Assembly: GCF_000316625.1 (NCBI RefSeq)
Contig: NC_019676.1
Location: 6,032,501 to 6,096,500 of the forward strand
Reading direction: 5' to 3'
DNA: 64,000 nucleotides
From: Nostoc sp. PCC 7107
GTDB lineage: Bacteria; Cyanobacteriota; Cyanobacteriia; Cyanobacteriales; Nostocaceae
Shown piece by piece: positions 34,767 through 52,700 of this stretch. Position numbers and translations under genes: made by a program. A model generated the notes under the pieces. That model had not been told where the DNA came from. It did not search any database and saw only the letters and a program-made list of their open reading frames with translations. Position 1 is the first letter of the stretch. Every line of letters starts with the position of its first letter.

Positions 34767-35171
34767 TTAACGCCGATCGCGTTCCAAATCATCAATGACT
34801 CGTTCACAGTACCAACTTTCTGGCATCCCTGGATAATTTTGCTTGGCCTGCTCAATTAAGCGTTCCGCTGTAACAGTGTCGCCATCTAATTTAGCAATCA
34901 GCTTGTTTTTGAGTTGAGTATCGGTGATGCGATCGTTAATCTCTGTCATAGACATATTTTCCGGCACAACTTGGGACTGTTCCCGGCGCAACTGCCAAAA
35001 TAGAACGTAATAAAGTGTCCCAAAAATTAAAATCAGGCTGAGTGTGCCAAAAAAAGTAAAGAGATTAAAAGTCAAGAATCCAAGCACTAACTGTGACAGG
35101 ACATAGCCAAGTAACAAACCTGTAAGTAAAAGAATAAATGTACCAATAACAACAATTACTTGGCTTCCCAT
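34767..35171 (-). CDS. Small membrane protein with cytoplasmic helical tail
   Basis: A 134-aa protein with two N-terminal membrane helices (VIVVIGTFILLLTGLLLGYVL and LFTFFGTLSLILIFGTLYYVLF) and a charged helical C-terminus (ITDTQLKNKLIAKLDGDTVTAERLIEQAK). It overlaps the end of the AmpG-like gene by 16 nt on the same strand, which indicates co-translation. Function unknown; the family seems restricted to cyanobacteria. Confidence 0.75.
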   Translation of the reverse strand: MGSQVIVVIGTFILLLTGLLLGYVLSQLVLGFLTFNLFTFFGTLSLILIFGTLYYVLFWQLRREQSQVVPENMSMTEINDRITDTQLKNKLIAKLDGDTVTAERLIEQAKQNYPGMPESWYCERVIDDLERDRR

Positions 35172-36667
35172 ACATCCTCATCTTCTTCCTCAAGTCCTGG
35201 TCTAGATATTACCACTGGCTTTTGATTCCAGGGCGCAACAAACGGTAAAAGTAACAATCCTGGTAAGGCTGCTACTAAGGTTAACAAGAAAAATACAGGC
35301 CAGCCGGTGGCTTTGGCCCAATCGCCTGCGGGTGCTGAAAGAACATCTCTACTAATCGCCATTAAGCTAGAAAATAATGCAAATTGAGTGGTTGTAAAAC
35401 GGTGATTGCAGAGGCTCATTAAAAATGCCACTGTAGCAACTGTGACTAATCCGGCGCTAAAGTTTTCGATATTTACTGCCAAGATTAATAACGAGAAATT
35501 TTTGCCAGCAACGGCTAAGGCATAATAACCCAAGTTGCTCAATAATTGCAGTATGCCAAATATCCATAAACCGCGATTTAGGTGAATTTTGGTTAAGATT
35601 ACGCCACCAGCTAATACACCAACAGTCGTGGCAAGAAAACCTATCCCAGCTTGAATTCCCCCAATTTCGGTTTTGGTAAAGTTAATTTCTCGCAAAAATA
35701 AATTAGCGGTGATACCTACTAAAGAATCACCCAGTTTATAAAGAATGATAAAAATCAGAATTACACTAGCTTGAGCGAAGCCAAAACGATGAAAAAATTC
35801 TTTAAACGGTAGAAAAATCGCCTCTTGTAAGTTTTGTGGGGCTTGGTTTTCTGGAGCCTCAGCAAGTAGCTCATCAGGCAATAATAAGGATGAAATTATC
35901 CAAGCGACGATCAAGCTTGCCAGTAGCCAATAAAATATGGGGAGAGCAATCAAGCCAGTAAAAACGCTTCCGAGTAAACCAGCTACTAAGGCCGTAATGA
36001 ATAGCACGAAGATCACATCTTTGGCAGATATCGGCGCAGTTTCTCGGTTATTAATGACCTGTGGTTCTCTGGGTGCAGATAAGGTGACAAGTATACTCCC
36101 CGCCATTAAAGCGGCCATGAGTAAGTAAACACCATTCCAAGGGAGGTGATCGGCTAATACCAAAGCTAGAGAACTGGTGACAAACAAAGCAACACGATAA
36201 CCCAGTACCCAAACAGATGCACCTGCTTCTGCTTCCAGGGGATTGAGGATATCAGTACGGTAGGCATCACCGGCGATGTCTTGGGTGGCGCTTAAAAAGG
36301 TGATAATTAGACAGTTGATTGCCAAAATTTGCAATACTTGGTCACTTTGGGAAGGCTGTTGAAGTGCGAGAGTAGCGATCGCAATTGTTAACCCAATTTG
36401 AGTCACAATTAACCAACCTCGTCTAGCACCCAAAAACGGCGGTACAAACCTATCTAACAAAGGCGACCACAAAAATTTTAAGGAATAAGGTAACGCCAAC
36501 AAACCAAATAAAGTAATTTTGCCGATATCAACCTTGGCATCTTGCATCCACACTTGCAATGTTCTACTAGTCAAGAACAAAGGCAATCCCGATGCAAAAC
36601 CCAGCAATAACAAAGCCCCCATCTTGCGACTTTGGACGGCTTGTCGCAATGCTTGGATTTCTCTCAT
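35156..36667 (-). CDS. AmpG-like MFS transporter (muropeptide permease family)
   Basis: A 503-aa integral membrane protein with about twelve to fourteen helices. It opens with the AmpG-like LLLGFASGLPLFLTSRTLQVWMQDAKVD, then LPYSLKFLWSPLLDRF and FLSATQDIAGDAYRTDIL, hallmarks of AmpG (import of anhydromuropeptides for cell-wall recycling). Cyanobacterial members may carry other substrates, so the name is by family only. The next gene overlaps its 3' end. Confidence 0.88.
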   Translation of the reverse strand: MREIQALRQAVQSRKMGALLLLGFASGLPLFLTSRTLQVWMQDAKVDIGKITLFGLLALPYSLKFLWSPLLDRFVPPFLGARRGWLIVTQIGLTIAIATLALQQPSQSDQVLQILAINCLIITFLSATQDIAGDAYRTDILNPLEAEAGASVWVLGYRVALFVTSSLALVLADHLPWNGVYLLMAALMAGSILVTLSAPREPQVINNRETAPISAKDVIFVLFITALVAGLLGSVFTGLIALPIFYWLLASLIVAWIISSLLLPDELLAEAPENQAPQNLQEAIFLPFKEFFHRFGFAQASVILIFIILYKLGDSLVGITANLFLREINFTKTEIGGIQAGIGFLATTVGVLAGGVILTKIHLNRGLWIFGILQLLSNLGYYALAVAGKNFSLLILAVNIENFSAGLVTVATVAFLMSLCNHRFTTTQFALFSSLMAISRDVLSAPAGDWAKATGWPVFFLLTLVAALPGLLLLPFVAPWNQKPVVISRPGLEEEDEDVWEAK

Positions 36668-37652: not shown

Positions 37653-39113
37653 TTAATCTTCCTGAAGTGAATAAATTTGATGTCCTCTAATTTCTACTCC
37701 ATGATCAGCTAGACATTTTAACCAACCTTCACGGGTACCAATGTCACTTTTTTGCTGGAGTAAGCCTAATTCCTGTTCTTGTTGGGTGAGTTTAGCAAAT
37801 TCTTCGTATTGGGGATAGTTAGGCATAACAAAGGTTTCTTTACGGTGCAGAACAGGGGGATTTGCCCGATTTGCATAGTCGCGGTGGGTGACATACAAAG
37901 TTTTTAAATCAATTGAGATGCTGGCTTTGAGTGCTGGATGGGGGTCTGTGTCGAAGTCTGGATAAAATAAATAAGATATTTGCGGTTTATCAAGACAATA
38001 TTTGATCAGTGTCGCCCCATCGACTCGCCCAATGGTGCGACTGGCGCAACCTTCATAAATGCGGAGTAAGGGATCGAGGGCGGCGAGGGCGGAAACATGA
38101 ACGTAAAGTGCGCCACGTGTTTGTTTGCCGATTTTGCTTTTTTCACAAGCTGTTTGAACTACTTTTGGTCTACCCAAACTAAATAGTTTTTGGTCGGCGA
38201 CTTCGCAAGCTTCCTCATAATTACCGAAGAAGGCTTTGATGTCGTGGCGCATTTCTGGCGCTAGTTTGGAGAATTTGGGACGTTGATCAAAGTGGGTCAG
38301 GGCGAGGTAAACTTGGATATCTAAAGAACGACGATAGGCGATCGCATCCCATTCTGCTTCATCGGTGGCTTGGAGGACAACAGTAAAGGCGCGGCGGAAG
38401 TTACCAAATTCACTTAATAGTTCTTGTTCGTTTCCTAATTCACCCTTGACAGGCAATCTACCGCGTTTGGTGAAAAATTCCATGAGTGGTTGCAGTGTTT
38501 CCTGATAATCTTCAAACCGCTTGCTAGGGATGCGGACTCGCGGTGTATAGGTGCGAGAAAAGAAACGGATGGCTTTGAAACTTTCTTTTTCAGCTTCGTC
38601 GCGGAAGACAAAGTAAACCCCCAGAGCTACCGGGACTGCATCAACATTAAGAATTTCATCAATATATTTTTTAAGTTCTGCTTGCTCATAATATTTTTGA
38701 AAGGTATTACGGCTAGTGACAATGCCGTCATTGTAAGCGAGTTGCGCTTTACTGGGCGCGTTAATTAAGACTTGAGCCGCCACAATTAAAACTTTGCGAG
38801 TGAGTTCCCAGGCTTTAATTAAACTTTGGTTGCGTTCTTCTAAATCTTCGATGACGTTGACAACATAACCCAAGTTAACCACATCAGCCGAATTAATCTG
38901 TTGATTGGGGTAGTAGTATGGATCCCAACCTGCGCTGGTATAGCCGAGGTTTCCGACACGCTGGACATCGCCACCGTAACCACAACCATAGTCAAAAAAA
39001 CTTGTGTCCTGATTGATGATTGACCATTCTATGGCTAATCTTACAGGACGAGAGATTTCTGTGCGTGCGATCGCAGCGCGATGGCGATCGATTTCTAAGT
39101 AGCTCTCCGGCAT
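37653..39113 (-). CDS. DNA phosphorothioation-associated putative methyltransferase
   Basis: A 486-aa protein of the Dnd-associated methyltransferase family. It opens RHRAAIARTEISRPVRLA, which is diagnostic. The SAM-binding motif is FFDYGCGYGGDVQRV, then SAGWDPYYYP and ADVVNLGYVVNVIEDLEER. The rest (residues ~200-486) is a family-specific domain without a known fold assignment. In many bacteria it sits beside dnd genes that replace a non-bridging oxygen of DNA by sulphur. Here dndE is 29 nt upstream on the same strand, so the two form an operon. The target of methylation is unknown. Confidence 0.87.
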   Translation of the reverse strand: MPESYLEIDRHRAAIARTEISRPVRLAIEWSIINQDTSFFDYGCGYGGDVQRVGNLGYTSAGWDPYYYPNQQINSADVVNLGYVVNVIEDLEERNQSLIKAWELTRKVLIVAAQVLINAPSKAQLAYNDGIVTSRNTFQKYYEQAELKKYIDEILNVDAVPVALGVYFVFRDEAEKESFKAIRFFSRTYTPRVRIPSKRFEDYQETLQPLMEFFTKRGRLPVKGELGNEQELLSEFGNFRRAFTVVLQATDEAEWDAIAYRRSLDIQVYLALTHFDQRPKFSKLAPEMRHDIKAFFGNYEEACEVADQKLFSLGRPKVVQTACEKSKIGKQTRGALYVHVSALAALDPLLRIYEGCASRTIGRVDGATLIKYCLDKPQISYLFYPDFDTDPHPALKASISIDLKTLYVTHRDYANRANPPVLHRKETFVMPNYPQYEEFAKLTQQEQELGLLQQKSDIGTREGWLKCLADHGVEIRGHQIYSLQED

Positions 39114-39142
39114 AAAAATATCAAGAAGAACTACATTAATCC

Positions 39143-39532
39143 TTATATCTTCTTTAGTGCGATCGCAATCAAATCTTCAATTTTCTTGATATTTGGATCG
39201 CCTGCTAAGTAACCAATACCACGATGCAAATGTAGGCGAAATTGAGTTACTAAGGTTTCTTTATCTGTGGCGTAACCATCATTGTGACAGCGTTGCTTAA
39301 GGGCGAGAAGGAGAATATCCGACATTTCGCCACCAAAGACGCGCCAAGTCATTTCCACATTGCTATCTTGAGGAATGGGTACGGGTGAGGGTGGAGTTGG
39401 TTCAGCGAGGGAACGACAAAACGCCCAGCGACACAGAATATTCCATTGATCAATTTTGGTGTTACGACGGAGTTTTAATAGTTGGTCTTTGGCTGTTTGA
39501 GAAAGTTTAATTCTTTCGATTGGGGATTCCAT
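39143..39532 (-). CDS. dndE: DNA sulfur modification protein DndE
   Basis: A 129-aa protein matching DndE: MESPIERIKLSQTAKDQLLK at the start, a helix with KIDQWNILCRWAFCRSL, TWRVFGGEMSDILLLALKQRC in the middle and FRLHLHRGIGYLAGD near the end. DndE binds nicked DNA and is part of the DndCDE modification complex. DndB, DndC and DndD are absent from this window. It is first in a minus-strand pair with the associated methyltransferase and diverges from the DUF4007 gene. Confidence 0.88.
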   Translation of the reverse strand: MESPIERIKLSQTAKDQLLKLRRNTKIDQWNILCRWAFCRSLAEPTPPSPVPIPQDSNVEMTWRVFGGEMSDILLLALKQRCHNDGYATDKETLVTQFRLHLHRGIGYLAGDPNIKKIEDLIAIALKKI

Positions 39533-39715
39533 GATTCCAAGTTAAAGAAATACTCTACATTATGCTTTCACATAATTAACCATACTGAACACCATGTTAA
39601 TAAATTTGCTATAATTCGTTTTTATGTCTATCAAGTGAAATTTGTGAACATACCTAATACTAGACATTAAAAAACGCTAATAAAATAAAACATATTTTTA
39701 TTGTTAAATAATACT

Positions 39716-40540
39716 ATGGCTAAATTACAACTACATTTTAATGGCTCTTTTGCTCTTAAAAAAGACGAAATCAGTAGGCTTATTTATGCTGCAAACCAAG
39801 ACCAAGGTTTAAATGATAGCTTGCCTAATTTGATGGAGAAAACAAGTTTAGGTAATGGCAAAGTAGGAAGAGTCAAAAGTTGGGCTGTACGCGCAGGGTT
39901 AATTAAAAATAATCACCCTAGTCCAGAAGGTGAAATTGTCTTAAAGTTAGATCCAGTACTGGAGTCAACTATTACAGATTGGTTGATGCACTTTTATTTA
40001 AGTTTTGGCGATCGCGGTTTAAAAACAACACCAGAAAATCCTGCCGATTGGGGCGGATGGTCTTACTTTGTATATACATTTTTGCCGCGTTATCATAAAT
40101 TTACGAAAGAAGAATTGCTATATCACAGTACATCAATATTTGAAGAAGAAAGCAAAGTAATTGCTAACAGAATTAATTACATATTACGCGCATATACTGA
40201 GTTTACTGCTTTAGCATCATGCAAGTTTTTGACTCAAGAAAAAGAGCAATATGTTAGTGGATATCCTAATTTACCTAACTCTTATCTATTAGGATACTTC
40301 TTAGCAAAATTATGGGAACGTGACTTTCAAGGCGAAGGTTCTGTTCTTACTGAGTCGATTTTGAACAAAAAAATGGGACTGGCTGCTGTGTTGGGGATAA
40401 CATCTGAGGCATTGCAAGAACAGCTAAATGCCCTAGAAGCTTACGGCATCATTGAACAGCGACGGGCTGTACCGCCCTTTCAAGTAATTCCGCGTTGGGA
40501 TAATCCTTTGACATTGCTTGAGAAAGCCTATGACAGATGA
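39716..40540 (+). CDS. DUF4007 family protein (Dnd/BREX-associated)
   Basis: A 274-aa protein from ATG 39716 (MAKLQLHFNGSFALKKDEI). It matches DUF4007 in layout: an N-terminal F-x-G/S-F segment, GNGKVGRVKSWAVRAGLI (compare the family's G-x-G-K-N/V motif), DPVLESTITDWLMHFYLSFG and SYFVYTFLPRYHKFTKEEL. DUF4007 genes commonly sit in DNA-phosphorothioation and BREX-like clusters; the function is unproven, with a winged-helix DNA-binding role likely from the C-terminal region. It starts 183 nt from divergent dndE and overlaps the next gene by 11 nt. Confidence 0.72.
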   Translation: MAKLQLHFNGSFALKKDEISRLIYAANQDQGLNDSLPNLMEKTSLGNGKVGRVKSWAVRAGLIKNNHPSPEGEIVLKLDPVLESTITDWLMHFYLSFGDRGLKTTPENPADWGGWSYFVYTFLPRYHKFTKEELLYHSTSIFEEESKVIANRINYILRAYTEFTALASCKFLTQEKEQYVSGYPNLPNSYLLGYFLAKLWERDFQGEGSVLTESILNKKMGLAAVLGITSEALQEQLNALEAYGIIEQRRAVPPFQVIPRWDNPLTLLEKAYDR

Positions 40541-40970
40541 AATTTCTGTAAGACTGCGAGATGCTAGACCCGATGACAAAATTCATTTGTTGTTGTGGGA
40601 CTTACCAGATGAAACCGAAATTTTGCGTATCGTTCATTACAATAACGCTCATCATGTGAATTACCGAAAAAATTTGCTACAAAGGATTCATCCGGGAAAA
40701 AGTTTTCTGACTCTTCATCACAATTTAGACACTGAACTAAATGCCATCAAGTCAATGTGCTGTGGGGTGGACAAGCAGATTATTTTGTTGGAAGGGTTTG
40801 ATTGTTTAATTACTTATCTACAAGTTACACCTGGCAGTCGCATTACGCTTTTCTGGAAACAACTAGAAGAGACGCGCAAGTTAGAAAAACTTTTGTGGAT
40901 ACTGCTACCCCAGCAATTAGAACCTAAAAATTGGCCAGCAGAACGAATTAAGCGTATTCCTTCAGGATAA
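40530..40970 (+). CDS. Unknown protein of 146 aa in the Dnd/BREX-like cluster
   Basis: Starts at ATG 40530, 11 nt inside the end of the DUF4007 gene, so it is translationally coupled. It is a soluble alpha/beta protein with KSFLTLHHNLDTEL, IILLEGFDCLITYL and a C-terminal helix ending LWILLPQQLEPKNWP. The pattern of a conserved hydrophobic strand followed by an 'FWKxLEETRKLEKLLWILLP' segment is reminiscent of P-loop-like BrxB proteins without a P-loop, but I cannot assign it. It is followed 33 nt later by the large ATPase. Confidence 0.6.
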   Translation: MTDEISVRLRDARPDDKIHLLLWDLPDETEILRIVHYNNAHHVNYRKNLLQRIHPGKSFLTLHHNLDTELNAIKSMCCGVDKQIILLEGFDCLITYLQVTPGSRITLFWKQLEETRKLEKLLWILLPQQLEPKNWPAERIKRIPSG

Positions 40971-41003
40971 TTATCTTTTTGCATTTACCATTTTGAATTT
41001 ACT

Positions 41004-44000
41004 ATGCTCCTCAACCAAATTGTTGAAATCAACGAAAAGGGTAATATTGCCAGTTCTGTGAACTTTGGTATGATGGACAATTCAGAAATGAATTTGTCTT
41101 TATGCGAGAGTTTTATTTTTAACTACGACCAAACAAAACCTGAGTTATCTACAGTGGGGATTTTAGATGCAGTGCAACGTAGTTATCATAGTGCTAATCA
41201 GCCCAATATCCATTTGATGATTCAACAATATGGTAAAGGTAAATCACATTTTGCGATCGCTATAGCCAACTTTTTCCAAAAACCCTTCCAAAGTCCAGAA
41301 GTACAAGGTATTCTGTCGCAAGTAGAAAAGGCAACATCTGGTAAAAGTCAGGCTGTTGCGGAAGGATTGAAGCTATTTAAACAAAATCAACGTCACCAAC
41401 ATTTAGTTATTTGTCTTAGTGGTGATATAGGTGGCGAAATTAGGAAGCAATTTTTACAACAACTCGTTAAAAGTTTAGCCGCAGCAGATATTCAAGATTC
41501 TTTAGCCCAGCATATATGTAGAGAACCGCTAGAATACTTGGAAAGTTTAGATTCAGGAGAAAGGCAAAAGGCAGAGAAGTATTTACAAAGTATTGGTAAT
41601 CCTGATGGTAATTTAAATTCTCTCATCAGCTTACTCAGAGATAATAATGCTGGTGTGATAGCCACAGTCAAAAAACTAGCCTATCATCTCACAAAATTGA
41701 CTGCTGATTTTACTGCCGATATAAATATCCAAGCAATTCTAGAAGAATTAATCAAAAAATATTGCACTGGTCAAAATGCCCAGTTCCAAGGAATTTTAAT
41801 TTTATTTGACGAGTTAAACTATTATTTAAAATCTTGAGCAGCCGATGATATTGGTGCTGGTGGTACAGCACTGCAAAATATTATTAACATTTGTGAGAAT
41901 TACAAAGGTAAAATTGCTCTGCTCAGTTTCACGCAAATTCATCCAGGTAGAGGGTTAGGAATTTCTGCTAATGCCATGCCAGAATATCTTAAAATTGCCA
42001 CTCGCCTTGCTCGAAAAGATGGCACTACCTATGATAATCCCACTTCTAGCTTAGAACTCGTGGTAAAAAACTTACTGCCAAAAAATGCCCCTAACTGGCA
42101 AACATTTCGTTCTCAATGGTATGACACTCTGAGGAGAGAAGCTGAGACAGCCTTTGAGCGAAGAATTAAAATTTATCGAGAAAAAGGCTGGTCTTTTCAA
42201 GAATTTTACACGCACTTGTCTGAAGGCTGTTTTCCCCTCCACCCGCTTACGGCATATCTATTATGCAACCTTGATTTTACTCAAGACCGAACAGCTATTC
42301 AGTTTATTAAAGGCTATGTCAAAAACTTTATTGCGACTCAACTTGTAGATAATGCTGGAAAACTCAATTATATCTATCCCATTTCTTTAGTAGATACTTT
42401 TCTAGAGAACTTTTCAAACTATCCTATTTATACTCAATATAAAAAAGCTGTAGATTTAGTAGTTGGTGCTGATGATATAGATGAATTAATTGTTCTGAAG
42501 GCTTTATTTTTATATGAAGCTAGTGGAGAAAAACTTACCAAGCCAGATAGAGAGGAACATCAAGAGATTCTAGTAACTTTGACAGGTTTATCTAAGTCTA
42601 AACTCCAGGCGGCACTAGATAAACTTCAAAAGGAAAGAGATTTAATTTACTACCGTCCAGAAATTAAACTTTACCGTTTTTGGGAAGGGATTAACCCTAC
42701 AGGTATTCAAGAAGAAATTGAAGAGAAAGTTAAATCGCTGACAACATCTATTAATGATGTTGTGACTTATTGCGGTGAAATTAATATTCTGAGGGAATAT
42801 CCATATATTAATACAGTTGCTGCTACATATTTTGTGAAAACTTACAAATTAGTCAGCGAAGACTGGCGGTTTGAGCGAAAGATATATAGTGTTGATAAAT
42901 TTATTAACGTACTAGAGAACAATCGGATTCTCAGAGATACCAAAGAAAAGGGAATTTTGGCTTATATCTTAGCAGAAACTCAAGAAGAGTTGCAAGAGTT
43001 TCGTAGTAATGTAGCTAGTTATTTGTCTAAATCAGCCTTTAAAAATCTTATTGCTGTTGCAATTCCTACAGAGGAGACAGGTAATTTAGCACGAATTATT
43101 TTACAAATAAAAGCTCTAGAAAAAACTGATGCTGCTGATAAAAGATTTTTGGGTAAAGCTTATCAAGAACAACTTCAGCGTTGGCAAAAAGAGGCAAGAA
43201 TTCGGTTAACCAGATTATTAGATAATTGCACTTATTATTGTGAGGGAATTGATAAACTTCCATCTACAGAACAACGTAAAGAACAACGCGTCATTAGCGT
43301 ACTTTTACAAGATTTATACCCCTTTGTTCCGCCTATTGATGAAATTGATAAAATGCGTTCAGACCATCAAACAGGCAAAAAAATTGTCAGATGGACTGCA
43401 AAGCAAATGTTTATAGACAATAATATTGGTCAACAAACACTTGAAGATCAGTCTTATAGGACTGTTATTGACCAGATTTTTGTTAAATTGTGGGGTTTAT
43501 TTAAGAAAACATCTGATAAATATATCGTTCAAGAACCAAATAATGAAAAAATCGGTGTTGCTTGGGATAAAATTTCTGAAATAACTGACTTACAAGGATC
43601 ACTACAAAAAAGTGTTGACTTAGAAGAAATTTGGAATGTACTTTCTGTCCCACCTTTTGGTTATAGCGAGTACAACTTTACGATGTTACTGGCAGGGTGG
43701 CTGGCAATTCACCGCAAAGAAGTTAGTTTAAGAGGACGCATCAAGCTGACTACTAAAAAAGGAGAGTTGGTTCCATTAGAAACCAAGTCTGTGCAGAATT
43801 GGGGTAATACTGATATTCTGCAAAACCCTACTGCATTTGTTGAAGAATGGATTATTAAACAAAAGGCTAAACTAATTCGTCGCCAACAAATACAAATGCC
43901 GACTCTGCCACCATTGCCTATGGAATATGATCAGGCGCAAGAGTATCTAGAGGCGGTTGCTGACTTTTTAGAGTCTAATGAACCGGATGAGTCAGAAAAA

Positions 44001-45608
44001 CAAGAGTTAAAGAAGAATCAAAAGCTGGTAAATGCTGGGGTTGCTGAAATTAACAAGTGGTTCCAGCCAGTAGAAAGTCTGGAAAACTTACCTAGTGATG
44101 CACAATTGCCAGTATTACTACCACTTTACCCCCAACTGTTGAAGCGATCGCCAAACAACTCAATTTTACCAACAGAACAACAACGCGATCGCTTTTCTCA
44201 AGCCTTACAAACTGTTGGCAACAAAATTAACCAACTTGTAACAGCAAAAAGTCAGCTTGTTGAGTCCCTATCTAGCGAACAAGCCTGCAATAATTATCAA
44301 AGAGAAGTTCAACAAATAATTGACCAAATTAACCAAATTGCAGACTTGCCTTCTCATCTAGTCGAGAGTTTGCAAAATGCTCTCTGTACTGCCAACATCA
44401 GATTAACAGATATCAGGCAACAAGAAGAAGCAGGACAAAAGCAAGCCGAAGATACACAAATCATGCAGAGTATTCGCAATTCTGCAACAAAAATTCAAAC
44501 AATGTATCTTGCCCAAGCGGCGTTGCAAGAAATTGCAAATCTACAGTCTCGCTTCAACTATCCCGACAAATTTCAGTCTGAAGTTAATGAAATTTTGCAG
44601 TCAATTCAAAATAGAACTACTGAGTATCGTTCTAGTTTGGTAAATCTTCGTTCTCAACTCCAGTTAGTAAATAATCTCTCTGATTTGGATGCTATCAATA
44701 CAGAATATGCCAAACTGAATAATATCTTTCACAATTCTGATGATTACGCAGGCTATCAAGAAATACAGCCACAAATCCAAAGTTTAAAAAATGACCTAGA
44801 GAAAATCCAAAATTTAGAAAATCGCTATCAACAAAGTAATTCTATTGCCAGTTGCAATGAGGCTTTGAAAATAATTTCTAGTCGTGATTTGAATATAGTT
44901 AATAATGAACGCTTTCAAAACAAAATTTCTCAGTTAGCAGTCAATTTCCAGCAAAAAATCCAAGAATATACTGCTGAATTAGAAGAATACAAGCATAATT
45001 TAGAGTATATTACAACCGTAGAAGATTCCCAAAGAATTCAAAAAGAATTACTAAAAAAGTCATCTCAATATTCAGGGTCAGAAATAGAGACAGAGTATGA
45101 AAGAACCATAGAAGAATTGACTCTAATAATTGAGTTATTGCAAATAGCTGATTCAAGAAAATTAGAGACCTTCGCAGCTTGCAAAACTCAGTTAGATAGC
45201 TTGCAGGATTGGGAAAATAGAAATAATGCACTGATAGAAAAATTTAGCGATCGCTTACACTCAATCCGTACACAAATACAACAAAAACAGCAAGCTGATA
45301 CCCAGCAATGGATTGAAGATTTAGAAAGTAGTTTGACCGAGATAAATCAATTGTCTAATGATACGGATAAACTCGCAGCCGCAAACAATTTATTAGATAA
45401 AATTCAAGATGAAAAATCAAAATATCTCAGCTTAATTGACACGCCAGCAATTCAATTAATAGAAAGTATAGAACGTCAATGTATTGAGGAACGCGACAAA
45501 GATATTGCCAATCAAATTTTCTTACTATTCCAGCAACTTCCTCGTCTAGAGCAACAAAATGTCTACGACAGAATAGGACAAATGCTCTTAGAAATAACGG
45601 AGGAGTGA
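41004..45608 (+). pseudogene. BrxC/PglY-like large ATPase, interrupted by in-frame TGA
   Basis: One frame of 1535 codons is broken only by TGA at 41836-41838, between DELNYYLKS and AADDIGAGG. The N-terminal part holds a P-loop of the short form MIQQYGKGKSHFAIA (Walker A GKGKS) and, ~180 residues later, Walker B ILILFDELNYYL just before the stop. The remainder holds a helical AAA-type lid, an unassigned middle, and long coiled coil (residues ~1000-1530). Length and motifs suit the BrxC/PglY ATPases of BREX and related systems. The sense codon before mutation was perhaps Trp (TGG). Unless read through, the product is a 277-aa fragment. Start codon overlap and spacing support membership in the same operon. 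Confidence 0.62.
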
Positions 45609-45613
45609 CAGGT

Positions 45614-46084
45614 ATGAGTGATAAACATATCATACTAGACCCTACCGCACTCTATGATATTCCTTCTGGTTATATCCCCATCACCACAGAGGTGGAATGG
45701 ATAGAGTTTTTTGGTGTCAGTAATGCTTGCTGCTGGGTAAAAGGTGAGCGATTATGTGAATGGGCAAAAACTTGGTTAAGAGTGTGGAATAGAAGTGAAG
45801 AAATCGCGGAAATTAAGCAACATCCTCGCAGTAAATTAACACAATTATTTGATAATGTACCCTTACCAAAAGATTGGAGTGACGAGCGATTACTGATTGT
45901 TGCTACCAAGTTAGATGCTTATCCCCAAGACAACCCTATTGCCCACTTTTTAGCAGACAACATCCCTGACAGTAACAGGCAGATATGGTTTGCTGAACCT
46001 TCCATTTCCCATCTCGCCGCTTGGTTAGCAATTATAGTCCCACTAGAATATCAACCTTTTGAGCGAGTCTGGCAGCAGCAGTTT
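45614..46084 (+). pseudogene. N-terminal part of an unidentified gene (position suits PglZ), truncated by IS
   Basis: ATG 45614 lies six bases after the ATPase stop, behind GGAG. The first ~157 residues (MSDKHIILDPTALYDIPSGY ... FERVWQQQF) are native. At 46085 the frame enters the ISAzo13-like inverted repeat and ends at 46273 in IS-derived sequence. The fragment has Trp-rich segments (IEFFGVSNACCWVKGERL) and no motif I can name. In BREX-like loci PglZ follows the PglY/BrxC ATPase, so a PglZ N-terminus is possible by position only. Confidence 0.5.
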
Positions 46085-46953
46085 AGGGACTTCCAGAGAA
46101 TAAAATATACAATTAATAAAAATGATAATCATTATGAAAGAGAGAGAGCAGTTGCCGACGGCAACTGCTCTCTCCCACCAAAATATATGCAAGATAAATG
46201 CCTGTACTCAAAAATACAAGAGCGCAGTGAGCAGAATGGCTATTGCCGCGAAAAACCGTTATTTAACTTCTAACAATTACGTTGCTCCGTAGCAAATATC
46301 AACAAACCACTTGCCTAAGTTTGGTAAATTCTCTTGACCAAAATTAGTCAAACGTGAAATTTTATTTTCAATTTCTTGCATGGCTTCTTTAGTTAAACGC
46401 ACCCCAGTAGCATAAGTTTGAGTTACTAACTTAACAACTGGATGTTTGCCATTCCAAGTCATAGTTTTAGCAAAGTTTAATGCGGTTTCGACTTCATCTA
46501 GGATGCTGCCATTCCAATGATTTTCTAATATAGCCCAAGTTCTTTCAATCGGGTTATATTTGCTGTGATATGGAGGATAATATGCTAAACGTATATTTAG
46601 TTGATGTTTTTGAGAGAATTCAACTATACGTTTCATAAACTGAGTACGTCGAGAGTTATTCTGACCTCCATTGTCTTGATTAATAAGTAAAGTTTTAATT
46701 TCGGGAAATCGCCAACTTTGGGACTAATGAATCTGCGTTTGGCTGCTCCTTTTAATTGCTGTGCAGTTTCCTTCAGCAAGTTTTTCAATGAATCCGTTAA
46801 TTCCATTGACACCTATGCACATCCAAAAATTGAATCATCATTGAATTTACTACAAAAAGGGAAGGAAGAGGTTCCCAACGGCAACCTCTTCCTTCCCCCA
46901 CCGGAATGATTATCATTTTTATTGTTTGTATATTTTATTCTCTGGAAGTCCCT
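46085..46953. mobile_element. ISAzo13-family element, internally deleted
   Basis: The 869-bp element is bounded by 49-bp inverted repeats with two mismatches (outer ends AGGGACTTCCAGAGAATAAA). Just inside each end is a strong hairpin, GAGAGAGCAGTTGCC... on the left and GGAAGAGGTT...AACCTCTTCC on the right. The transposase inside is missing its centre. No target-site duplication is visible, which fits a deletion or recombination at this site. Full ISAzo13 elements are longer (about 1.4 kb or more by transposase length). Confidence 0.8.
46277..46806 (-). pseudogene. ISAzo13-family transposase, internally deleted and frameshifted
   Basis: The N-terminus MELTDSLKNLLKETAQQLKG starts at 46806 and loses register near KRRF. 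The C-terminal half resumes in another frame with LLINQDNGGQNNSRR, then the catalytic-region LAYYPPYHSKYNPIERTWA and FAKTMTWNGKHPVVKL to NLGKWFVDI. The middle of the DDE domain is gone. It cannot make a functional transposase. Confidence 0.8.
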
Positions 46954-47203
46954 CATTTCTTACGTACAGCAGCATACTCACTTTGAAAAAAACGTAACTA
47001 TTCGTGACCAGAATGCTATTTTGAAATCAGCATCAGGGTTTCTTAAAATTCTCTATCCTCATTTAGAATTAACGTTAATGGACTATGAGCGTGATTGCCT
47101 AGAACCTGCTTGTAAATTACGCCAAGCTATCCGAAATTCACAATATTATCTAGATGATGAATTTAAGCAGATTGGTAGAGAAATTTATGTAGAGGCAAAG
47201 TAA
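46954..47203 (+). pseudogene. C-terminal fragment, BrxL (Lon-like)-type
   Basis: After the right IS end an open frame runs to TAA 47203 with no start of its own. It reads ASGFLKILYPHLELT ... LEPACKLRQAIRNSQYYLDDEF. The 'SGFLKxLxP ... E..L..A...R..I' pattern resembles the extreme C-terminus of BrxL-type Lon-like proteins (recalled, not aligned). It does not continue the gene on the left of the IS, so a segment carrying most of both genes was probably lost. Confidence 0.45.
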
Positions 47204-47211
47204 CAATCAGA

Positions 47212-47244
47212 AGATTCCCGACTTGTTGCAGCAGTCGAGAATCT
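47212..47244. repeat. 33-bp dispersed palindrome, copy 4 (diverged)
   Basis: AGATTCCCGACTTGTTGC... with compensatory-looking changes in both arms, 33 bp like the others. It lies 9 bp after the BrxL-like fragment and 5 bp before the IS4 end. Confidence 0.7.
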
Positions 47245-47269
47245 GAAGCTTCAAGGGGCGACAAGCAAG

Positions 47270-47604
47270 CTAAAGTGCTTGCTGTATAAGCTTCATAGCC
47301 CTTAACCCGCGCTGATAATATGCTTGCTTATTGCGACTGAAACCGACCAGTTCCTCGACCCATGCTTGACACCCATACCAAGCAACTATCCAATTGAAAC
47401 CATATAAACCTATCCAGAAATTACTATGACGTTTCTGGGTTCTATTTTTTTCTTCTTGGCGACAAATATAAGAATCAAGTTTTTGAAATTTAGTTCTTTG
47501 CCCATGTAACCAAGCACTGGTCATAGCCAAAGCAATTAAGAAAATTAGACGTACAAGTCTATCAGGATTAGCTTGAGAACTCTCTAAATTGTACCCACCT
47601 GTTT
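47270..47604 (-). pseudogene. IS4 transposase, C-terminal part
   Basis: The frame reads TGGYNLESSQANPDRLVRLI to RGLRAMKLIQQAL and ends at 47270. It is the continuation of the transposase that starts at 49396; the two halves join in frame (FKDC + KTGGYNLE) when the IS630 copy and one TA are removed. Confidence 0.85.
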
Positions 47605-47624
47605 TATAGCTATAGCCAGTTTTA

Positions 47625-48185
47625 TTAGGACGCTGCGTGCTTGAGAACGAATTCGATAGCATCACGTAAATGATCACAATTGTGTAATTGTTTGCGAATC
47701 CTACTTTTTAACCATGCCCAACACTTCTCAATACGATTAAGGTCTGGTGAATAGGGAGGTAAATAAACAAGTTCACAGCCTGCATCATGTATGAGTTGGG
47801 CAATTCGACCACCATGATGAAACGTCGCATTATCCACAATTACCCACTCACCGGGACGCAAAACCGGAATCAAACATGTTTCTAGCCAGGTTTCAAACAC
47901 TGTGCGGTTACACGCCCCCTCGACTGTAAATGGGGCAATCAATTGATTATCCCGATACCCAGCAATCATGTTAATGCGTCCCTGTCGCCGACCGGATTTG
48001 AGGTCGTAAAATCGTTCCCCTGTTGGTGAGTACCCATAGCCGTAGTTATCTCGTTCATCCATTCCCGATTCATCGACATAAACCAAGTGTGGTGCTTTTG
48101 GGTTCTTCAGTTGTGCTAGAAAGGTTGCTCGTTTGGCTTCATCTCGTTGACAGTAGCCATATGTTTTTTTTACGGGTGTGTCCAA
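47625..48185 (-). CDS. IS630-family transposase, DDE catalytic part (orfB)
   Basis: The DDE domain has HLVYVDESGMDERDNYGY (first Asp), WVIVDNATFHHGGRI (second Asp) and LPPYSPDLNRIEKCW (Glu). It overlaps orfA, and a run of eight A on its strand (48164-48171) lies in the overlap. The orfB frame is +1 relative to orfA, so the full transposase probably arises by slippage at the A-run, as in many IS630 members. No obvious defect. Confidence 0.9.
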   Translation of the reverse strand: MDTPVKKTYGYCQRDEAKRATFLAQLKNPKAPHLVYVDESGMDERDNYGYGYSPTGERFYDLKSGRRQGRINMIAGYRDNQLIAPFTVEGACNRTVFETWLETCLIPVLRPGEWVIVDNATFHHGGRIAQLIHDAGCELVYLPPYSPDLNRIEKCWAWLKSRIRKQLHNCDHLRDAIEFVLKHAAS

Positions 48186-48501
48186 TTTTCTGCAATGCCC
48201 GTGAAATCGTGCGTTGACTAATCTCTCCTTCCCATAACTCTACCATTTGGACTTGAGTTTTATCACCATTTGCTTTGACAAATGCGCGAAACTTCTCCCA
48301 ATCATCGATTTTGCCACCCCTTTGGCATTCCTGCCTCGATTTGACCTTGATATCACCCGTTTGGGCTTTTCTTTGACACCACAAGTTAATCGTATTGCGA
48401 CTGATATTGAACAATTGGCTCGCCTCACTCTTTTTGAGACCGTCCAACTCAATTGCTTGCATCACCTTTTGCCGGAAATCATCACTATAGGGTTTAGCCA
48501 T
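48139..48501 (-). CDS. IS630-family transposase, helix-turn-helix part (orfA)
   Basis: A 120-aa N-terminal DNA-binding part. It opens MAKPYSDDFRQKVMQAIELD with the typical IS630 HTH (SEASQLFNISRNTINLWCQR) and a second helical module (QVQMVELWEGEISQRTISRAL). It ends shortly after the A-run. See orfB for the frame relation. Confidence 0.9.
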   Translation of the reverse strand: MAKPYSDDFRQKVMQAIELDGLKKSEASQLFNISRNTINLWCQRKAQTGDIKVKSRQECQRGGKIDDWEKFRAFVKANGDKTQVQMVELWEGEISQRTISRALQKIGHTRKKNIWLLSTR

Positions 48502-48569
48502 CTGAGTTTGAATCGCAATACTAGGAATACTTCATAGTTTATGTCCTAATCTTATTGGCTACAGCTATA

Positions 48570-49396
48570 CAATCTTTGAACATCGCCTCAATCCCAAAAC
48601 GTTGAGCATATATTTTGAGGGCAGTGTTTAAATCAGGTAAATTAGTTAATAAATACCAAGCTTCCTTATCTTGCTTTCCTCGATACTTCCTTTTCCAATA
48701 AACAGCTAAATTGAAGCAACCAAAACCTTTTTTTTGAGTAACTTTAATGTCGGTATAAAAGGAGCGGATACCTGGGTAAATCTCAATGCTACTCAAAGGC
48801 TGAAATTTCTGTCTTTTCTTCCGAAAAGTAGTATCCTTTTTTTGACGGAATACAAAACTCAGGTTCTGCTTTTGGAGCCAATGTGCTAGTTCTACACTGT
48901 GAAATTCTCTATCCCCAATAATTACTAGTTTATACTTTTTTAATAAGCGAATTACTGGGCGTAATACTTTTTGTTGTTCTTCTAAGTTACTACTACCATC
49001 TTTTCCTAGCAGACACCAATATATTGGCCAAGCTCTCTTTTGGTAAATTACACTAACCATCAACACATTGTTTTCTTTCCACTGCGTTCTATCCATAGCA
49101 ATGGTTAATTGTGACCCTAGTTTAAAATGTTGGTTAATTATTGCTTCAATAATCGGAAACCACAACAATACTACACTCAAGGCATTCAGTGTTAAAAACC
49201 TTTGTAAATGCCGTCTACGACTGTTTTGCTGTATAGGTAAAGGTAGAGTCGCTGCCAGTCTTTCTATCCTTACCTGCTTCTGATTTTGTAACAACCACAC
49301 CAACATCTTCAGGGTGATTAACTGTGCTTTATTTAGGTATTTTTCTAAGAAGTTTTGGTAGAATGATGCCAGCATTATGACGACGGTCTTAATCAA
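48570..49396 (-). pseudogene. IS4 transposase, N-terminal part, cut by IS630
   Basis: Reads from MIKTVVIMLASFYQNFLEKYL through the DDE segments LTIAMDRTQWKENNVLMVSV and LVIIGDREFHSVELAHW to YAQRFGIEAMFKDC. The IS4 signature Y-x2-R-x3-E-x6-K is interrupted by IS630 just before its Lys, which sits at the start of the C-terminal part. The last seven residues of the frame are IS630-derived. Confidence 0.87.
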
Positions 49397-49714
49397 ATTA
49401 CGAGACCGTTCTTTTTTACCATTAAACTGTACCCTACAGGTAGCCGCTTAATAACTGTACAGTTCATTCTCAATAAGCACCCAATTTTTTCAAGGGTTAT
49501 GTGCCTCTCAAACCTTTAGCTTGCAGGGTTTAGAGGCGATTGTCGCCCCTTGAAGGGTTACAGAGTACAGAGTTGACAGCGATCGCCGCAGCCATTAGAT
49601 TTTCGGCGTTGCTAACTAATTAAAGGGATGAATTTTGTTTCGCGCAAAGGCAAGGCAGCGCGTTGGGCGGGTTCCCCAACTTAAAGCGACTGCCGCGCAA
49701 AGGTGCTGTTTTGA

Positions 49715-52700
49715 TCACAAACCATTGCCAATCAAAATAAAGGCTGACCAGTAAAAAGGATGACTGAGATGCTCGCTTATCTGTGGAGTGAGGTTACTTT
49801 TATGGGGCGGAAAACTCATTTTTGAGTAGTTTCCCGTAATCAGGGCAATTTGTGCTTGACGTAGGGCTTCGGCCTTGGTTGTTTTGCCTTGGGCAAGGAT
49901 GTTGTAAAAAGCATTCATTAGTACTTGTGTACCGCCATCATCTACTGACCACAAAGAGGCGATCGCGGCTCTTGCGCCTGTTTGTTGTATCTGGTAGCCA
50001 AAACCGAGAATTTCTCTACCATTGCCAAATTGATCGCCTAATCCGGTTTCACAGGCTGAAAGTACGATTAAATCGACATTGGGCAATCGCCAGTTTTTGA
50101 TATCTCGGAGGGTGACGCGATCGCCATTTCCTAACAAAATAAATGATTCTTCTGGCTGTCCGGTGGTAAATGCGGCGTGAGTTGCTAAATGGACGATGGC
50201 GTAATCATTCATTTCCAGCACAATATCTGAATTGAATTGCTTGTCTAATAATTTTTTGGTGCTGGGAATGGTTTGAGCGAGTGTTTCGATTTCTAAACTA
50301 GCAAAGGGTAAACCGGAAAAGTCAAACTGCTGAGATCCTACCTGAAAACTATAGTTGCCTTGGGTAAAGGCTGCCGCTAATACATTTAATTGATTGTGGG
50401 GTTTGGTGTTGAGGTCGGTTAAGCTGACGGCAGTAATATTATTGATTTGGAAGCGTTCAATTAACCATTTTTGACCGTCATAAAGGGCGGCTAGAGGAAC
50501 ATAACGCAGTTGTCCGTCGGGAGCATAGATGATGGTTTTGGCTTGTGCTTGCGCTAAGTCATTTTCTAGGGGTTTAATCAGCAAATCGTAGAGTTTTTGG
50601 GCTGGAACTGTGATTTTTGGGGTACGTTTTGGTAAAGTGGTGCGAAATTCCAAAATTGCTCGGTTGAGTTCTGCTTGAGTGACAGCCACGGTGCGGCGGA
50701 TGGGCGGTGCGTAGGGAGTGACTAAAACTAGTTCTAAGCGATCGCTCAATACTAGAGGATAAAGTATGACTGCGCCTTGCTGAAGTTGTTTTAAGTTATC
50801 CTGTAAGACGCTGGCAGAGGATTCCAGGTTAAAATTCTGCCCTTGGGTGGTTTGCTGGAGTTGGGCGATCCATTCGCGCACTTTCGGGCTATCGAGGAAG
50901 GTGTTAAAGTCTTTGGCTAGTGTCTGCTGAATTTTGCGTAATTCTAAAATACGCTGTTTCTGGGCTGGAGTGCGGCTGCTGACACTAATGTTTTCCAGTT
51001 GGGCGAGTTCTCTACCAAGGGCGATCGCTTGCTCAAATTCTGCTTGCATCACCTCTCGAATTTGCCGTTCTTGGGGACGTTCCACAACACCAGTCGCCGT
51101 TTTTTCACTTCCTCGCACGTCGCGGAGATAATCATCAATTTCTTGGACTTTGAGTAAGTCTAGTACTTGTTGCGCTTCTAAAATTCGGTTGCGTTGCAGC
51201 AGGATATCGGCTAAATGGCGATAATCTTTGGCAATGGTTTCGGTATAAGATTGCTGTTGTTCTTTGCTTAATTCCCGAATATTATTGCGAATTGTTTCTC
51301 TAGCATTTACTGATTGTTTGAAGAAGATAATTGCTAATTCTGGTTGGTTCTGTTTTTCAAGTAACTTCCCGATAGTATTGAGAATGTATCCTTCAACTTC
51401 TTTGTTGCCAATTTCTTGAGCAATTACTAAACTTTGTTGTAAGAATTTTCCGGCTAATTCATATTGCCCTTGCTCTAAATAAACGTTTCCTATGGCGTAG
51501 AGATTTATCCCTTGTGCATTTCTGGATTGGAATTGTTGATAAATAGTTAAAGGTGGTTGCAAATACTCCAAGGCTAATTGATATTTTTCTTGCTTGAAGT
51601 GAACAATCCCAATATTGTAATATGTTGTTGCTTTGAGAAATTCTTGTTGTTCTTTGTTCTGAATTTTTTGCAGCACTGTTAAGGCTTGCTGATGGAAATC
51701 TAACGCTAATTCATACTTTTCTTGTCTGTAGTGAATATTGCCGATCGCATTCAGCACCCTCACTTCACCTGCAATGTCTCCTATTCTGTTTCCGTCTGAT
51801 TCGAGCAGTACGGGTTGTCTGGCGATTTTTAAGGCTTCCTGATAAGCTTTTAAAGCCAGTTCGTATTGTCCTAACACTTTATAAATCTGTCCCATATCAA
51901 ATTCAATTCCTACCCAGGTGCCTAAAATTTCTTGCCGGATGGGTAAGGCTTTTTGATAGTAATCGAGAGCTAATTTATACTCTCCCAAGCTGCTGTAAAC
52001 TCTCGCCATGCGATGGAAAGTCTGCCATTGCTTTGGCTCATCACCTATTTTTTTTGCAATCTCCAAAACTCGTTGGTATTTTTCTAAAGCTTCTCGATAT
52101 TTACCTGCTCTCGAAAATTCATTACCTTGGATGGTGTAAATTTCTGCTATGGAGTTGAGGCTGGCTTTTTCCCAACCGCGATCGCCGATTTCTTGTTGAA
52201 TTGCCAAAGCTTGCTGATAATATTTCAACGCCTGCTGGTAATTTCTTTGGCGATGGTAAACGTCTCCCAGGTGGAACAAAGTTCTGCCCGTACCTGTTTT
52301 ATCTTCTATTTGTTGATAAATTAATAAAGCTGTTTCAAAGGTTTTGATGGCTCTGGCATATTCCCTTTTTATATATTGCTGCCAACCTACTTCATACAGT
52401 TGATCAGCTTTCAATTTTTCTGGTGTTTGAGCGAAGAAAATCACGCCACCTACGGGGTTAAAAGTCGTAATTTTTCCAGATGAAAAGCGAATTTCGATTT
52501 GTTCGCCATCAAAAGCCCCGCTCAACGGCGTTTTGCTCAGGATAGTTGCTGTATTATCACTTTGTTTTGCGATTTCCTGTCTAATTGCCAAGGCTTGTTG
52601 ATCAACTTGAGTAACGGCTTGATTTTCTCCTAATTGTTTGTAAACTGCACTCATCTGGGTGAGAATTATCCCCTCCCAAGGGCGATTTTTTTGCTGGCGA

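Follow-up and report, generated by a model that had tools for sequence, protein, structure and literature searches.

A BREX-like gene set nested in cyanobacterial dnd clusters and its decayed copy in Nostoc sp. PCC 7107

The described systems closest to the locus reported here are Dnd (dndBCDE) with DndFGH, SspABCD-SspE, DndCDEA-PbeABCD, and bacteriophage exclusion (BREX) type 4 (brxP-brxC-pglZ-brxL). In Ssp, SspB and SspC stand in for DndE and DndD, and Pbe comprises an HKD/SF2 helicase, a small protein, a CxC ABC-ATPase, and a DndE (PMC10853773). Cyanobacterial dnd clusters vary in layout, DndFGH is reported to be absent from cyanobacteria, and an antioxidant origin has been argued from the stated absence of restriction components (PMC8569181). 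Here, we describe an island of Nostoc sp. PCC 7107 in which dndE adjoins the remains of a BREX-type gene set, located in a window of 64,000 nucleotides (positions 6,032,501-6,096,500 of a single 6.33-Mb contig). We consider it fairly probable that the island is a decayed Dnd/BREX hybrid locus, a BREX-type core without a writer of its own that used phosphorothioate supplied by Dnd or, in other genomes, Ssp. The writer genes dndC, dndD, and dndE are those of Dnd, but the putative effector linked to them, a BREX-type core, differs from DndFGH. The locus resembles DndCDEA-PbeABCD in coupling a phosphorothioate writer to a multigene effector set; identity with PbeABCD was rejected, HKD/SF2 helicase and CxC ABC-ATPase families being absent among the cassette proteins scanned. 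BREX is not mentioned in the main text of PMC10853773 or PMC8569181, nor DndE in the accessible text of PMC12839542, and the nested Dnd/BREX arrangement was not found in the open-licence PMC papers searched.

The island and its nested relatives

The original prediction placed dndE and a Dnd-associated methyltransferase back to back with a DUF4007 gene, a gene for a 146-aa protein, a large ATPase gene, a possible start of pglZ, and a brxL-like end, and profile searches and sequence comparisons showed all of these genes to be present, at the following window positions:

37653..39113, minus strand: TIGR04096 DNA phosphorothioation-associated putative methyltransferase (722 bits, cut-off 150)
39143..39532, minus strand: dndE (DndE 153 bits in Pfam, 140 bits in NCBIfam)
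39533..39715, no strand: 183-bp spacer between the divergent dndE and DUF4007 genes, the presumed promoter region
39716..40540, plus strand: DUF4007 protein, SspB/BrxA-like, open (PF13182 35 bits, cut-off 27; PADLOC SspB 32.5 bits)
40530..40970, plus strand: 146-aa protein, open, with a predicted AAA+/STAND-like fold and putatively BrxB-like
41004..45608, plus strand: BrxC/SspC-like ATPase, 1,534 codons before the end stop (PADLOC SspC 23.7 bits, N-terminal part)
45614..46085, plus strand: pglZ, 5' end only, approximately 165 of 730 codons, the last few inside the insertion sequence (IS) remnant
46085..46953, minus strand: ISAzo13-type IS remnant of 869 bp with 49-nt terminal inverted repeats, 96% complementary
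46955..47203, plus strand: brxL, 3' end only, the last approximately 80 of approximately 485 codons (PF13337 55 bits)
34767..36667, minus strand: p134 and an MFS transporter, left flank of the island (blastp synteny)

At E 0.1, the 146-aa protein matched nothing in Pfam, NCBIfam, or PADLOC. Genome-wide, the only DndE match was the dndE of the island, the BrxL fragment was the sole BrxL match, and the ATPase was the only one of its kind found. From the methyltransferase to PglZ, window positions 37671-46085 share 80% DNA identity over 8.4 kb with a Nostoc carneum locus (L146), and positions 46955-47251 share 86%. The PglZ start is 76% identical to residues 1-165 of PglZ from L146 and a second locus, L142, and the BrxL end is 91% identical to residues 403-482 of the latter's BrxL. 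As judged from these sequence comparisons, the arrangement is beyond chance, and other heterocystous cyanobacteria retain a collinear locus.

To place the island among related loci, alignment patterns of DUF4007 were scanned against 84,980 species genomes, yielding 82 candidate stretches and 47 loci, a lower bound since the patterns were short. All 47 were cyanobacterial. The cassette comprises five genes, encoding DUF4007, the 146-aa protein, the BrxC/SspC-like ATPase, PglZ, and BrxL. In 10 of the 47 loci (L141-L148, L151, and L182), found in Nostoc, Chrysosporum, and Fischerella, it lies reversed between dndE, from which it diverges, and dndD, with which it converges, so that the layout reads methyltransferase-dndE, reversed cassette, dndD-dndC; in L144 and L145 a contig end leaves just one side of the nesting visible. 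The composite nature proposed for the island is thus repeated in ten further loci, and where these are unbroken, PglZ and BrxL occupy the place expected from the window, which is not filled by unrelated genes. p134 and the MFS transporter also flank the methyltransferase in the nested loci checked by blastp (L142, L146, L148, L151, and L182). In a 43-row tree, the nested copies and the window, drawn from three families, formed one branch, with Shimodaira-Hasegawa-like approximate likelihood ratio test (SH-aLRT) support of 74 with Fischerella and 100 for the other ten rows (FastTree support 0.87 and 1.00). The nested set is under purifying selection, with pairwise ratios of nonsynonymous to synonymous substitution (dN/dS) of 0.06-0.26 (eight loci for the DUF4007 and 146-aa genes, seven for the ATPase gene, and six for pglZ and brxL). 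Judged against L146 by tblastn, all five genes are open in four nested loci: L146, L147, L148 (with a shorter ATPase), and L151.

Like BREX type 4, the locus combines a phosphorothioate context with DUF4007, a BrxC/SspC-like ATPase, PglZ, and BrxL. Unlike type 4, the cassette has a separate BrxB-like 146-aa gene and is nested in dnd, and a blastp comparison of the 10 nested loci, up to the ends of their contigs, found no SspD-like gene for a 3'-phosphoadenosine 5'-phosphosulfate (PAPS) reductase, BrxP in type 4. The full-length PglZ of L142 scored 24.4 bits with the type 4 model NF033445, whose cut-off is 140. Type 4 proper was rejected on the absent reductase and this low score, and membership of type 4 was not supported. 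PADLOC recognized PglZ at 92 bits in L045 and 100 bits in L041, the PF08665 score in L142, 18.6 bits, fell short of the cut-off of 25, and PglZ also matched PorX (profile 1e-7, Foldseek 5e-10). The ATPase reached 47 and 86 bits as PADLOC SspC (L045 and L041) and 22 bits as BrxC; BREX models of Pfam and NCBIfam gave no match to the ATPase of L146. BrxL of L142 scored 433 bits with TIGR02688 (cut-off 329), so the BrxL feature of the BREX superfamily is present. Family scans of the cassette proteins found no modification enzyme of its own among the five genes.

Some cassettes contain a PglZ frame of more than 1,300 aa (L165:16691-20815, and also L166, L168, L170, L174, L176, and L177). In the L165 frame, the only long one scanned, NERD and protein kinase domains come first, an order reminiscent of PglW from type 2 BREX.

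Decay of the PCC 7107 copy and its distant dnd genes

The effector decay noted in the original prediction was borne out. The ATPase frame of the window is interrupted by one in-frame stop (41835-41837, codon 278 of 1,534), and approximately 2.9 kb of pglZ and brxL present in L146 are gone, with the ISAzo13-type remnant in their place. On this sequence evidence, the effector of the window copy is dead. Nested cassettes elsewhere are broken by differing lesions: L143 and L144, like the window, lost the stretch from inside pglZ to inside brxL, and in L182 the missing stretch starts within the ATPase gene and ends within brxL. Over the stretches available, the dnd genes beside nested cassettes are open.

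The absence of dndB, dndC, and dndD held for the vicinity of the island but not for the genome. On the same contig, approximately 100 kb away and on the minus strand like dndE, lie dndC (6,175,317-6,176,654, 702 bits) and dndD (6,172,305-6,174,287, 784 bits), with a DndB-like gene beyond dndC (PF14072 45 bits, cut-off 29); loss of dndBCD from the genome was therefore rejected. DndC, DndD, and DndE all exceed their model cut-offs. The system had been proposed to be either split or dead. It is indeed split, and its effector is dead, but its modification genes are not missing from the genome. Since dndC, dndD, dndE, and the methyltransferase gene are all open, marking with phosphorothioate probably continues in this strain.

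The order and strand of the dnd genes in PCC 7107 are as in its relatives, the cassette remnant and a 92.5-kb segment separating dndE from dndD. Seven relatives without a nested cassette were compared (L192-L197 and L199, the L197 genome having a cassette elsewhere). dndC, dndD, and dndE are contiguous, with a DndB-like gene before dndC, in all seven; the methyltransferase follows dndE in six, and the MFS transporter flanking the window cluster was seen in five. Spacers between dndD and dndE, measured in five of these relatives, were about 30, 68, 68, 383, and 510 bp. Beside the DndB-like gene near dndC is an HNH endonuclease gene (L035:18489-19436) with a homolog in L182; it is another candidate partner for dnd clusters in cyanobacteria.

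Two features mark the left end of the 92.5-kb segment:

47241..47248, no strand: 8-bp direct repeat at the left border, read by eye (other copy L035:12291-12298)
47249..49555, minus strand: IS-like element with 16-nt perfect terminal inverted repeats

The repeat, ATCTGAAG by eye at both outer borders, lies one base before the end of dndD in its second copy (L035:12291-12298). Near the right end of the IS-like element, 52 nt (49503-49554) recur identically beside dndD (L035:12239-12290), and the sequence outside both borders, again placed by eye, resembles the brxL-dndD spacer of L146. We read the segment as the possible product of a later event at the junction of brxL and dndD, an insertion or rearrangement mediated by IS elements. 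Ten of its longer open reading frames (ORFs), among many more, were scanned; they were mostly housekeeping genes and transposases, and on these ten an origin as a phage or conjugative element was rejected. They comprised polyphosphate kinase, an OprB porin, two FAD enzymes, an ABC transporter, a WD40/AAA protein, a TPR match, and three transposase-type genes. The segment also contains two IS605-type TnpB-like genes with identical scores (L188:7013-8434 and L190:2843-4264) and, just inside its left end (window 49715-55315), a repetitive open frame of 1,866 aa that appears TPR-like by eye.

Cassettes beside Ssp genes and cassettes without an adjacent writer

An SspD-like PAPS reductase adjoins the cassette in 12 of the 47 loci. 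Within the stretch covered, SspC-like genes occur in 11 of these and SspA-like genes in 5; further SspA-like genes may lie beyond it. PADLOC models were applied to one Ssp-linked pair, the sister loci L040 and L041, where SspB (363 bits), SspC (1421), SspD (377), and SspE (1101) precede the cassette and SspA (433) follows it. The cassette itself was recognized through DUF4007 as SspB (49 bits), the ATPase as SspC (86), PglZ (100), and BrxL (421), so that its DUF4007 and ATPase genes come on top of a full Ssp set. The two proteins are distant relatives of SspB and SspC, but, at 49 and 86 bits in L041 versus 363 and 1421 for its SspB and SspC, they differ from those of SspABCD-SspE. SspA-, SspD-, and SspE-like genes were not found in the nested loci, and a set of SspA, SspB, SspC, and SspD alongside the cassette occurred neither there nor in the window island. 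The PCC 7107 genome contains a separate locus (L198, 5,110,500-5,130,400) with SspC-, SspD-, and SspA-like genes, other ORFs lying between SspD and SspA, and without a match to the BREX-like cassette.

A further 18 loci have no adjacent writer. L150 was scored in this class despite upstream SspB/SspC-like genes, because SspD was not found in the locus or the genome. Genomes with both DndC and DndE accounted for 10 of 10 nested, 18 of 18 writer-less, and 5 of 12 Ssp-linked loci, the L153 genome being scored Dnd-positive with DndC in two pieces. SspD occurred in 0 of 10, 1 of 18, and 12 of 12 genomes, respectively. The writer contrast between classes gave a Fisher value of 0.0004 with loci taken as independent. 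L179, L184, and L187, which match DUF4007 and no other cassette gene, were dropped from the Ssp-linked class; before this, Dnd was present in 7 of 15 (Fisher p 0.0005). Four loci were kept apart: L180, L181, and L185, where contigs end near the cassette, and L186, a second copy in the L173 genome. The L180 and L181 genomes have SspD (in L181 a 49-residue fragment at a contig end), and the L186 genome has both writers. Neither DndC with DndE nor SspD was found in the L185 genome, where the cassette is on a 5-kb contig beside an SspE-like gene; this is the sole such case among 44 cassette-bearing loci.

Among 291 genomes of the order, DndC was found in 228 (E 1e-50), DndE in 240, and SspD in 45; the TIGR04096 methyltransferase matched in 253, in 246 of them above its cut-off. 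dndC, dndE, and the methyltransferase gene, in 78, 82, and 87% of these genomes, are thus close to core genes.

A model for the hybrid locus and its alternatives

We infer a link between Dnd and the effector genes because the cassette is nested in dnd, no other writer is present in the locus, and the same set is linked a second time to Ssp. The BREX-type core, lacking a writer, would have entered the dndD-dndE spacer in the opposite orientation and persisted in one lineage. DndC, DndD, and DndE, together with a cysteine desulfurase, would write phosphorothioate at host sites, in keeping with their established role as phosphorothioate writers. DUF4007 may serve as an SspB/BrxA-like DNA binder and the 146-aa protein as a BrxB-like inactive NTPase, and their complex with the BrxC-like ATPase would scan DNA for sites that lack the mark. 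The ATPase would then engage PglZ, a PglZ-superfamily phosphodiesterase/nuclease, and BrxL, an AAA+ DNA-binding ring, and so block the replication of DNA without the mark; this acting step follows the established knowledge of PglZ, BrxL, and BrxC. The nested locus would in this way form a restriction-modification system whose restriction depends on phosphorothioate. We are evenly divided on the more general proposition that a portable, writer-less BREX core docks onto either Dnd or Ssp, reading the mark and not the enzyme, and that, when nested, it provides cyanobacterial Dnd with the restriction partner presumed missing.

Several results weigh against this model. DUF4007 and the ATPase match known families only weakly. 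Six of the 10 assessable nested copies are broken (the window, L141, L142, L143, L144, and L182; L145 was not assessable), and PglZ of the unbroken L147 and L148 deviates at motif positions otherwise conserved in an alignment of 16 PglZ proteins (DHG and SHGG), so that it may be impaired. A kinship-corrected test of the writer contrast was not significant (four independent pairs, median p 0.5). The presence of Dnd in 18 of 18 genomes of writer-less loci, set against an expectation of 228/291, gives p 0.012 and, Dnd being nearly universal in the order, is only weakly unexpected. Nesting, moreover, may be a single event.

That possible single origin, the 18 loci in which the cassette sits away from any writer, and the commonness of Dnd, which leaves co-occurrence saying little, would all suit a different reading, in which the spacer between dndD and dndE is a safe landing place for an independent BREX-like defense that does not read phosphorothioate and whose position in dnd has no functional meaning. 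We regard this as unlikely, though the strongest of the alternatives, given that the cassette lacks its own writer and in other loci adjoins the genes of Ssp, the other phosphorothioate writer, and that L185 alone among the 44 cassette-bearing loci comes from a genome with neither DndC and DndE nor SspD found.

The cassette might instead aid the writing of the mark, through Dnd site choice or processivity, and not take part in restriction, since SspB and SspC, distant relatives of DUF4007 and the ATPase, replace DndE and DndD in Ssp (PMC10853773). Yet most genomes with dndC do without the cassette, its ATPase type being found in 14 of the 291 genomes against 228 for DndC, and the Ssp-linked locus that was scored has full SspB and SspC besides the cassette. 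With PglZ and BrxL being effector-type genes by established knowledge, a writing aid appears highly improbable. Equally hard to credit is a type 4 BREX origin followed by loss of the PAPS reductase, leaving mere debris unlinked to Dnd, which would fit the similar ATPase-PglZ-BrxL order, the DUF4007 gene, and the ruined window copy, but not the four nested relatives with all five genes open, the purifying selection on the set, the lack of a PAPS reductase of its own in all 10 nested loci, or the PglZ score of 24 bits against a cut-off of 140.

With an effector set nested in the dnd cluster and all its genes open in some strains, the question of whether cyanobacterial Dnd serves restriction becomes testable. 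Should one effector set indeed serve Dnd-made and Ssp-made marks alike, self-recognition in BREX-like systems would lie in the DNA mark and not in a dedicated enzyme. That effectors have been lost repeatedly while the marking genes stayed open would also help to account for the frequency of solitary dnd clusters.

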